From: a virus
Direction: 5' to 3' (one strand)
IMG/VR virus record: IMGVR_UViG_3300042520_002054
Span: 1-64,000 of that record
Length of the DNA stretch: 64,000 nt
Shown: positions 3,781-32,878 of the stretch, piece by piece
Layout: each line of letters opens with the position of its first letter
Numbering within the stretch: position 1 is the stretch's first letter
The notes under the pieces: generated by a model
The model's input: the letters and a program-made list of their open reading frames with translations, nothing else
Told to the model about the DNA's origin: nothing
The model's database searches: none
Translations under genes and position numbers: made by a program

Positions 3781-4871
3781 CTTATATTGCTCTTAAACAT
3801 GTTATAGTAGTTATGATATTGAGCTTTGCGATTCATCTCCCATACACGTTTCAATTCATTAAAGTCAGGAGTGTTCACATAGCTAAATGCATTATTTCTC
3901 GCCATTCTTAATTTTTGCGAAATGAATTGCAGTTTATTTTGAACTGCAGATTCACCACTTAAAAACATATTTTCAAATATTCTTTCTTTCAATGCATACT
4001 CATAATATTCATTGACAATAGGATGATCAAATACTAAAAGGTTACCAGCATCATCTTCCATTACAGAACTATAATTCAAGTAAATAGTACCCTCGTCAAA
4101 ATTTACATGAAAGAATCCATTTTCAAGATATCCGATATAATGACTTTTAACAGTTAAATTCCAGCAGTCATTCATTATCTTTCTGCTAGGTTTAATTTCA
4201 ATAGGCACTAAACGCTTGTATGTATTTACAACATTGTTGTGTATATAAGTTACCGTAGGATTATTATCATCATCGTTTTGCAAGTGAGTTTGCTGACTAC
4301 CAAAGTTTGTAATTGACTTTTTACCAATAATGATAATTTTAACTCCTGTAATAATTTGTGCTGTATCATTATCAAGAATAATTTCTCCAGCGCTTGGTGT
4401 TGAAAAATCAAAAGATGCTAATGTTCCATCAGGTAACTGAGCTTGAACAATTACATCCATTGTATTAAGAGTGTGACTTATCAAATTACCATTAGGTTGA
4501 AGATCCATTGTAATTGTAAACTGATCTACACTTGTTCTTGATAAAATATTTTGCGCCATCAATACACCTTCAAGTAAACCTTGATTGTAAGTTTTTTCTT
4601 TTCTTACAATTGGATGTTCGTTACGTGACTCACAAACCAAAGCAAAATTCAATACATGAAAATCTTCAGGAAGTCTAGCTTTACCTTTATGAATCTCAAT
4701 ACACTTTTGTCTTGTAGGATTCACCTTTAGTCCAAGTTCACGGTTTACCTTAATTGCTACTTTAAGCAATTCTTGAGGTTCTACATAACCTTGACTATCG
4801 ACACCCTTCATGTCAATCTCGACACTTTGCAAAAGCTCGTCAAATGTTCTATATTGAATTTCGGTTAGCAT
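3777..4871 (-). CDS. Tail hub/connector-like structural protein
   Basis: 364 residues, no signal peptide or membrane segment. The C-terminal third (FDEGTIYLNYSSVMEDDAG, then DHPIVNEYYEYALKERIFEN) resembles the conserved structural protein located next to the tail tube gene in crAss-like phages. There, an extended beta region is followed by long helices that pack in a ring. The start is ATG at 4871, 11 nt after the stop of the upstream gene, and the end overlaps the HExxH gene by 4 nt. The position between tube and stabilisation genes supports a tail role; the exact subunit is not certain. Confidence 0.6.
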   Translation of the reverse strand: MLTEIQYRTFDELLQSVEIDMKGVDSQGYVEPQELLKVAIKVNRELGLKVNPTRQKCIEIHKGKARLPEDFHVLNFALVCESRNEHPIVRKEKTYNQGLLEGVLMAQNILSRTSVDQFTITMDLQPNGNLISHTLNTMDVIVQAQLPDGTLASFDFSTPSAGEIILDNDTAQIITGVKIIIIGKKSITNFGSQQTHLQNDDDNNPTVTYIHNNVVNTYKRLVPIEIKPSRKIMNDCWNLTVKSHYIGYLENGFFHVNFDEGTIYLNYSSVMEDDAGNLLVFDHPIVNEYYEYALKERIFENMFLSGESAVQNKLQFISQKLRMARNNAFSYVNTPDFNELKRVWEMNRKAQYHNYYNMFKSNIR

Positions 4872-27120: not shown

Positions 27121-27484
27121 AGTTTTTTCTTTGGTTTTTGATTTCAGCTTTTTCAGTTTCAAGTGTAGCAACTTTTTCTTTTAAGTCTAAAAGTTTATCA
27201 AGCTGATCGTACTTGTCTTTTAGAATGCTGTATTGCTGTAATGTTTTTGGTGCACCGATTGTTTCGATCAACCTCTGTAGTCTTGCTATTTTATTTTCCA
27301 AAGACCAAGGTTTTACAACAAATGTTCCCAGATTTGGAACTTGTATGTGTGTATGTGTGACTTGCGACATTTGATTATGCACATACTTCCAATATTGCAC
27401 TATTACAGAATCAACAATTTCTTCGCTTACATTAAGCTTCTGTGCTGTCTTCTTTACTATTTGGTTTCTCTTGGTTGGTCTCAA
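27083..27484 (-). CDS. IHF/HU-like DNA-bending protein
   Basis: 133 residues. The first 75 match the HU/IHF fold: two helices (KRNQIVKKTAQKLNVSEEIV), then the beta arm with VPNLGTFVVKPW, where GxFxxxxR-type residues are expected. A coiled-coil extension of about 55 Lys/Glu/Gln-rich residues is added at the C-terminus and is absent from bacterial HU. crAss-like phages typically encode such IHF-like subunits in the packaging arm. It probably bends DNA for packaging or replication. Confidence 0.75.
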   Translation of the reverse strand: MRPTKRNQIVKKTAQKLNVSEEIVDSVIVQYWKYVHNQMSQVTHTHIQVPNLGTFVVKPWSLENKIARLQRLIETIGAPKTLQQYSILKDKYDQLDKLLDLKEKVATLETEKAEIKNQRKNYEQHNSNLEKQG

Positions 27485-27854
27485 CTGCTAAAAAATTATA
27501 GTTTAGTAAAATGTTTCCTTTTTTTGCAACATTTAATCCATCAATAAGTCTAATTACTTTCTTACCCTTACGTGATTTAATCACATAACCTCTCTTTTCA
27601 AGACTTACCATTCTGTTTCTTACGTTCTGTGAACGTACTTCTGGTTTTTCTGTATGCTTATATACAATACCTGCAGCACGATCACAGAACAAACGCAGTT
27701 CAATTGGACCCCATAAACCTAATAGTGTCAGCAGTTCCAAATCACTAGAAACAATGCTCTCTTTTTTAAAGAACATTACTTCTGTAATGATTTGGTACTT
27801 TACCAGATCGTAGTGATCTAGTCTTACCTTTTTTGTTATTTTGTTTACTTCCAT
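27432..27854 (-). CDS. Winged-helix-like conserved phage protein
   Basis: 140 residues. It opens MEVNKITKKVRLDHYDLVKY and contains GLWGPIELRLFCDRAAGIVY, then VRNRMVSLEKRGYVIKSRKGKK, which looks like the recognition helix and wing of a winged-helix domain. A Glu/Ser-rich tail follows. First gene after the structured non-coding region and co-directional with it, overlapping the IHF-like gene by 53 nt. Likely a DNA-binding regulator or packaging factor; conserved in crAss-like phages as far as I can judge. Confidence 0.6.
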   Translation of the reverse strand: MEVNKITKKVRLDHYDLVKYQIITEVMFFKKESIVSSDLELLTLLGLWGPIELRLFCDRAAGIVYKHTEKPEVRSQNVRNRMVSLEKRGYVIKSRKGKKVIRLIDGLNVAKKGNILLNYNFLAVETNQEKPNSKEDSTEA

Positions 27855-27865
27855 TTTGGTTTTAT

Positions 27866-28325
27866 TTCTTAATAATGTCAGTGAGCGAGTTTCACGCTCA
27901 TCTCCTATAATCCAGTTATATCTGCGGATACAACTGTAACCCTTGCCACCTAAGGGATAGGCGTGCTTTTTTTACGCTTGCACCAACACGACATTGACTA
28001 TGTTTACTGATTTTTCATAAGGTGGGAGTCCTGACTACCCACAAGTCTAACGCATGTCCCTTTTCACCCATAATCCAAGTAGATGATCAGTCTACCTGTA
28101 ATGATTAGCTGGATTGACTACCAGCACCTGCTGCGGAGATCAGTATGTATATTCTTCGCAGGACCCCAGAGCTTATTGGTTACGCTACCTTTAAGTTGAG
28201 TGGTTTTATCCTCCATGCCTGACAACGTGCGTCCCAGTGCTTTGCAGAACGGTAACACTACATTAACCCCTCTCAAGAGTTTGTTCAGTCACAAATGAAA
28301 ATCAGATTTCTCAAAGAACGATTTG
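27866..28325 (-). ncRNA. Candidate large structured non-coding RNA next to tRNA-Met
   Basis: About 460 nt without a plausible gene on either strand. At least nine hairpins are readable: TGAGCG/CGCTCA (27882-27900); a 10-bp stem with 4-nt loop (27913-27936); CCCTT/AAGGG (27940-27956); GCGT/ACGC (27961-27977); GTGGG plus ACT/AGT (28022-28042); an 8-bp stem (28076-28098); GCTGG/CCAGC (28108-28125); CTGCG/CGCAG (28131-28161); and CTTA-AA-GGT/ACC-AA-TAAG (28172-28195). A long-range pairing AATGTC/GACATT (27874-27879 with 27990-27995) encloses the first four. It lies directly downstream of tRNA-Met. Strand is inferred from the flanking genes. No tmRNA or RNase P signature is seen. Confidence 0.6.
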
Positions 28326-28400
28326 TTGCGGGGGTGAGATTCGAACTCACGTAGTTTGGCTTATGAGACCAAGCTGGAACCAACTCCAGTCTACCCCGCC
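28326..28400 (-). tRNA. tRNA with CAU anticodon (Met-type)
   Basis: Cloverleaf on the minus strand: acceptor GGCGGGG with CCCCGCA, D stem CTGG/CCAG with GG in the loop, anticodon stem TTGGT/GCCAA with loop CTCATAA (anticodon CAT), and T arm GTGAG/CTCAC with loop TTCGAAT. The first acceptor pair is G1-A72, a mismatch, and the D arm is preceded by four bases (TAGA) where two are usual. No CCA is encoded. Met is the simplest reading; an Ile-type CAU (lysidine) cannot be excluded. Confidence 0.85.
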
Positions 28401-28681: not shown

Positions 28682-28706
28682 AATTTATTGGTTTATAATT
28701 GTTTAG

Positions 28707-28780
28707 AGCCACCAGTAGGAATCGAACCCACAACCTACTGAGTACAAATCAGTTGCTCTACCAGATTGAGCTATGGTGGC
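28707..28780 (-). tRNA. tRNA-Thr (TGT anticodon)
   Basis: Minus-strand cloverleaf: acceptor GCCACCA/TGGTGGC, D arm GCTC...GAGC, anticodon stem ACTGA/TCAGT with loop TTTGTAC (anticodon TGT), T stem GTGGG/CCTAC (one G-T pair) with loop TTCGATT, discriminator T. No CCA is encoded. Confidence 0.9.
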
Positions 28781-32752: not shown

Positions 32753-32804
32753 AGTACTACGTATTTGTCCAGTTTTTTGCATAATAAACTGGACAGGTTT
32801 ATTG

Positions 32805-32878
<74 letters not shown>

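Follow-up and report, generated by a model that had tools for sequence, protein, structure and literature searches.

Comparison of an environmental phage locus with its relatives indicates that the stretch at 27866-28325 (minus strand), which the original prediction had taken for one RNA of ~460 nt, comprises two separate conserved structured RNAs, both on the minus strand: a proximal element A, identified by covariance models as a remote, long-form relative of the Rfam family manA (RF01745), and a distal element B, which is a previously undescribed RNA family. At a probability of roughly 0.5, we favor the reading that A is a free-standing RNA made in the manner of rRNA within a tRNA operon, and that B is a cis-acting leader controlling ORF140, the gene directly downstream of it.

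The DNA comes from an IMG/VR virus record of 120,708 bases (IMGVR_UViG_3300042520_002054), of which positions 1 to 64,000 form the stretch analysed here (the window). The large terminase of the phage shares ~26% identity with crAss-like phages, and we therefore regard the source as a distant, environmental crAss-like phage. Relatives were drawn from IMG/VR using the flanking proteins; in the isolated phages searched, we found no related DNA and no ORF140 homologue. All members of the cluster lie on the minus strand, in the order tRNA-Thr, groES, tRNA-Met, element A, element B, and ORF140 (Table 1). As predicted, the tRNA with the CAU anticodon loop, whose homologue in relative L020 is tRNA-Met(cat) according to ARAGORN, lies immediately 5' of the stretch, and the stretch itself, bounded on its other side by ORF140, is non-coding, its sole overlap being with a 52-aa TTG ORF. 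The GroES-like gene inside the tRNA cluster is conserved in relatives. A third phage tRNA, tRNA-Arg(TCT), is encoded ~4 kb upstream on the same strand (window 32804-32878); in L020-L022, this tRNA adjoins element A and tRNA-Thr.

Table 1. Features of the tRNA/RNA cluster, with positions in the window
Feature	Position	Strand	Evidence
tRNA-Thr (TGT), upstream cluster member	28706..28780	-	ARAGORN; Rfam tRNA 71.1 bits
GroES-like co-chaperonin gene, 91 aa	28406..28681	-	PHROG 3188 co-chaperonin GroES, E=2.8e-5
tRNA, CAU anticodon loop (tRNA-Met type)	28326..28400	-	Rfam tRNA 39.7 bits
boxA-like CGTTCTTTGAGA, 5' edge of A	28309..28320	-	12 of 12 positions agree with the rRNA boxA consensus used
Element A, long-form manA-like RNA, closing-helix end to end	28007..28305	-	RF01745, R2, covariation
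A closing helix, 5' strand CUGAUUUUCAU	28295..28305	-	covarying helices 1-2
3' hairpin GUGGGUAGUCAGGACUCCCAC, conserved, common to manA-type RNAs	28022..28042	-	RF01745 alignment; search pattern
A closing helix, 3' strand AUGAAAAAUCAG	28007..28018	-	covarying helices 1-2
A/B junction, tmRNA site in L003, L005, L006	27996..28006	-	alignment; ARAGORN; Rfam tmRNA 88.5 bits in L005
Element B, 122-nt multibranched RNA	27874..27995	-	model R1 96 bits; covariation; no Rfam match
ORF140, conserved, directly downstream of B	27432..27854	-	alignment; 140 codons

The relatives split the stretch cleanly into its two elements. Three of them (L007, L008, and L010) lack ~28318-28007 and keep the remainder, tRNA-Met joining AGTCAATGTC directly in the alignment, and another three (L003, L005, and L006) carry a full tmRNA between A and B, the tag in L003 being GETEFSSMTWEDAMSFVGAELELAA. 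In more distant relatives, B stays beside ORF140 and A is found elsewhere, just 5' of tRNA-Arg or tRNA-Thr. Because the modules part in this manner, we regard A and B as separate RNAs, and a single 460-nt RNA is ruled out. Folding energy was dropped as proof of a structured RNA, as it gave no signal on the minus strand: taken over the full stretch, it is unexceptional (z = -0.76, with 21 of 100 shuffles folding equally well), and the plus strand performs better against its own shuffles (z = -2.13). The many stems that had been seen by eye are thus within chance and prove nothing by themselves, so that the evidence had to come from relatives; there, the description of the region as many-stemmed was upheld by covariation far above chance.

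A short covarying helix of about 9-11 bp closes A by joining its two ends. Double-sided changes were present in 46 of 73 pairs among eleven A sequences, in 58 of 73 among fifteen long forms, and in 50 of 73 among four sequences outside model training taken alone, although these counts do not represent independent events since the copies are related. The covariation score for the fifteen sequences was 0.648, as against 0.197 upon shuffling (reached in 0 of 500) and at most 0.144 in slid controls; in all three sets (11, 15, and 4 sequences), none of the 500 shuffles attained the observed score, which lay far above the slid controls. The alignments A4, A6, and A7 were fitted to models, a caveat that for element A attaches to A6 and A7. 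Together with the changes in B described below, these compensatory changes bear out the original prediction of large structured phage RNA beside a tRNA.

The sole sub-threshold Rfam match in A was to RF01745, at 28313-28016 (25.4 bits; E=7.7e-6 when the phage's own genome was searched); it spans model positions 1-192, and 0 of 14 control genomes matched. The Rfam gathering cut-off for this family (55.2 bits) is missed by A and by the other long forms (23-32 bits). Conversely, model R2, built from eleven long forms, matches the window at 28312-28000 with 327 bits, finds long forms outside its training (L059, 242 bits; L062, L087, and L089, 103-110 bits), and reaches classic manA (L105, E=7e-10; P-SSM4, E=2e-4), the cultured cyanophages P-SSM4 and P-RSM4 scoring 21 and 20 bits, respectively. 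As RF01745 finds A and R2 finds classic manA, homology is evident in both directions, although strict Rfam membership fails. A represents a new subfamily of an RNA that is known but unexplained; it is longer, and its context is new. It is also much smaller than GOLLD and ROOL RNAs. The latter are likewise large structured phage RNAs reported beside tRNAs (PMC12286853), but cmscan of our region matched neither, even with E allowed up to 5, nor was any other Rfam family matched above its cut-off. Accordingly, the view that the region matched no named class was right as to GOLLD and ROOL and wrong as to manA, and that of a new RNA family holds for B, which has no Rfam match, but not for A.

Like manA (RF01745; Weinberg et al. 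2010, PMC2864571), A carries the 5' motif GUGACUGAA-AA followed by a hairpin and UAAxGU, the 3' hairpin GGGUAnnCAGnAnnCCC, and a helix that joins the RNA ends. It differs in its length (~300 versus ~200 nt) and larger central domain, in its score (25 bits versus a cut-off of 55), and in that it usually adjoins tRNAs, is accompanied by boxA in crAss-like phages, and has no constant downstream gene. A pattern for the 3' hairpin that the alignment supplied had matches in 49 viral stretches, part of them known beforehand. RF01745 was matched in 41 of the 50 records searched, 16 of them above the cut-off, and the matched records fall into two classes: RNAs of ~200 nt, mostly without nearby tRNAs, and RNAs of ~300 nt, often inside tRNA clusters. 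The hairpin pattern also had 74 matches in bacterial genome contigs; the 26 rechecked with R2 proved to be 3'-hairpin fragments only (best 13.5 bits), and they were rejected as copies of A. No RF01745 match was found in 50 further ORF140-bearing records, which implies that A is patchy and dispensable for this phage group. In the open-licence literature, we found no report of A or B in crAss-like phages.

A is a cassette: its presence varies between close relatives, its slots differ, and it usually lies beside tRNA genes. Its 3' neighbor may be B, a tmRNA, tRNA-Arg, tRNA-Thr, tRNA-Ser, or tRNA-Met, and in cyanophage S-SSM7 (manA at 151363-151563) tRNA-Gly begins at the very next base, 151564; the long forms L059 and L064 are without a tRNA within a few hundred bases. 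We did not find A in the 5' UTR position before one regulated gene, the next feature often being a tRNA or tmRNA. This variable 3' neighbor and the changes of slot argue against a switch for a single downstream gene, which A probably is not. In L040, a relic of A (3890-3951) consists of one simple hairpin between the old ends.

A boxA lies at the 5' edge of A. In relatives, the block reads [CT]GTTCTTTGA[AC]A, matching the GTTCTTTGA of Bacteroidota rRNA operons; AGTTCTTTGACAT (3' of a 16S gene) and AGTTCTTTGAAAG (in a 16S leader) occur in two genomes of Bacteroidota. Every A-bearing crAss-like locus checked carries boxA, and in 38 loci without A (217 kb) its core occurs five times, in no case adjoining a tRNA or tmRNA. 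Beside the A relic of L040, the boxA core TTCTTTGA has changed to TTATTTGA, so that the site reads TGTTATTTGAAA. Using a pattern in which one position was loosened after examples had been seen, we detected boxA (at least 11/12) within 200 nt upstream of 14 of 20 non-redundant manA-type elements versus 0 of 20 in both controls. With the pattern fixed beforehand, boxA was found upstream of manA in 0 of 5 named cultured cyanophages, which rules it out as a general manA feature, and the long forms L057, L062, L087, and L089 have no boxA upstream. The boxA link is limited to crAss-like phages and one marine manA group. In place of boxA, the five cyanophages have promoter-like sequence: by eye, sigma-70-like TTGACA/TATAAT motifs stand just upstream of cyanophage manA (L306, S-SSM7 151363-151634; L303, L304). 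Further boxA-like matches lie just 3' of tRNA-Leu in L057 (1301) and of tRNA-Pro in L087 (3720), at a distance from the contig's manA-type element, and possibly signal further RNAs within those tRNA clusters.

The arrangement of boxA, closing strand, RNA, and closing strand is also the order of a bacterial rRNA operon leader, for in E. coli rRNA, boxC comes next after boxA and base-pairs with the trailer, giving a leader-trailer helix (PMC10250234). The likeness extends to the boxA sequence of Bacteroidota rRNA operons and to the adjoining tRNAs, whereas the RNA enclosed here is non-ribosomal, its closing helix is short, the spacing differs, and the parallel is drawn from sequence.

Element B has a closing helix (P1), a hairpin (P2), a stem (P6) enclosing P3 and P4, and a further hairpin (P5) with the 7-nt loop UGNAANU, as determined from 19 aligned copies trimmed to the helix ends, because MAFFT misplaced the closing helix on untrimmed copies. 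P1 is formed by the long-range pairing AAUGUC/GACAUU, which is probably the one long-range pairing of the original prediction, A having a closing helix of its own. Double-sided changes were found in 26 of 33 pairs in the trimmed copies and in 30 of 33 in a refitted alignment of 25 distinct copies, with a covariation score of 0.601 versus 0.222 upon shuffling (0 of 500 reached it) and at most 0.118 in slid controls. Model R1 found 30 copies of B in 75 sources, several in loci outside its training; as ORF140 or groES served to collect the loci, copies elsewhere could have been missed. The 29 copies that could be placed all stop 13-23 nt short of the ORF140 start codon (in the window, 19 nt), and given so constant a distance to a single start codon, B is most likely a cis-acting leader. 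In being structured and held at a fixed spacing upstream of one gene, B resembles riboswitches and other leader RNAs, but it has no Rfam match: a permissive search with three divergent copies yielded no family, the best being FMN in one copy (10 bits, E=4.7). The B hairpin GGUGAAAnUCC resembles the T-loop hairpins of cobalamin and FMN riboswitches, a resemblance that we take to be a lead. By eye, the interval between tRNA-Met (2844-2914) and ORF140 (3001) in L218 holds a shortened B not found by R1, in which a CCUGC/GCAGG stem encloses only a P3-like hairpin (GGUGG loop) and a P4-like hairpin.

Neither Pfam nor PHROG yielded a match for ORF140. Its AlphaFold model (mean pLDDT 72) has four helices and two strands in a winged-helix-like arrangement, and comparison with the PDB gave weak matches only (best E=0.04), many of which are winged-helix regulators. 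Where ORF140 is present and B is not, most phages have a tmRNA whose end lies 66-99 nt ahead of ORF140 (ARAGORN; Rfam 71-95 bits; L235, L239, L242, L245, L254, L255, L260, L262-L266, L268-L270, L274, L279, L281, L282, and L284-L286), and tmRNA and B occur together only in close relatives of the window. Phage tmRNA (RF00023) thus fills the slot before ORF140 where B is missing, but neither A nor B in the window has a tmRNA match (RF00023, ARAGORN), and L003 and L005 carry A, B, and tmRNA side by side, which makes it unlikely that B is a decayed tmRNA. In L239, L260, and L285, the gap of ~200 nt between tRNA-Met and tmRNA looks by eye like a short ORF starting MLQLNPMIP/MLQLEPMIP.

Under our preferred reading, A would probably be transcribed inside the tRNA operon, the host's rRNA-type antitermination complex being loaded at boxA, and it would be bounded by its end-joining helix (compare the rRNA leader-trailer helices) together with processing of the neighboring tRNAs; translation is the natural guess for its target. 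That the stems are chance pairings in non-coding DNA with no functional RNA, for which the usual folding energy of the single sequence might speak, is refuted by covariation in A and B that no shuffle equalled and that greatly exceeds the slid controls, and we give this idea practically no weight. The main rival for A is that A itself constitutes a cis-acting element for processive antitermination (comparable with lambda nut, HK022 put, or EAR), boxA and the fold riding RNA polymerase so that terminators in any downstream sequence are read through. The position of boxA, which in crAss-like phages stands immediately 5' to A and in the marine manA group lies upstream of the RNA, agrees with this, as do the varying features downstream of A and the placement of cyanophage manA just after the promoter-like motifs seen by eye; yet the five cyanophage manA RNAs are without boxA, and A often ends a tRNA cluster or sits inside one instead of heading a long operon. 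The size of A and its many conserved unpaired positions also exceed those of known antitermination elements, and we consider the proposal unlikely. It is quite improbable, in our estimation, that A acts as a riboswitch or as some other cis-regulator, the role put forward for manA in 2010, when Weinberg et al. graded it probably cis-regulatory (PMC2864571): the homology with manA and the location of some classic copies 50-220 nt ahead of Hsp20 and other genes accord with such a role, but the long-form class is without a constant downstream gene, often has a tRNA or tmRNA next to it, and occupies different slots in different relatives.

As for B, we propose that it serves as a cis-acting 5' leader of ORF140, most likely acting on translation or mRNA stability. 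B might instead be a separate small RNA merely located before ORF140, that is, a free RNA or a protective 5' structure released by tRNA processing, rather than a translational leader. B does lie directly 3' of tRNA-Met in many phages, and upon inspection of the sequence P5 resembles a T-arm, abutting P1 as the T-arm does the acceptor stem, which is a resemblance only; however, B is kept without a preceding tRNA in six loci (L023, L025-L027, L031, and L032), and its distance to the ORF140 start stays within the range given above. We view this alternative as possible, if somewhat unlikely. Equally tentative is a broader proposal that manA-type RNAs are phage-encoded stable RNAs and not riboswitches, which would be bounded by the end-joining helix, use host rRNA antitermination where boxA is present, be released beside tRNAs, and act on the translation apparatus, with B representing a new family of leaders that governs a phage regulator from the slot elsewhere taken by phage tmRNA.

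manA has remained an unexplained riboswitch candidate since 2010, and the cassette habit and rRNA boxA described here suggest a function of another kind. With B, whose covariation is very strong, comes an RNA family not described before, one associated with a single conserved gene in environmental crAss-like phages. Together, A and B mark an RNA island in crAss-like phages, in which the slot of B often holds a phage tmRNA.
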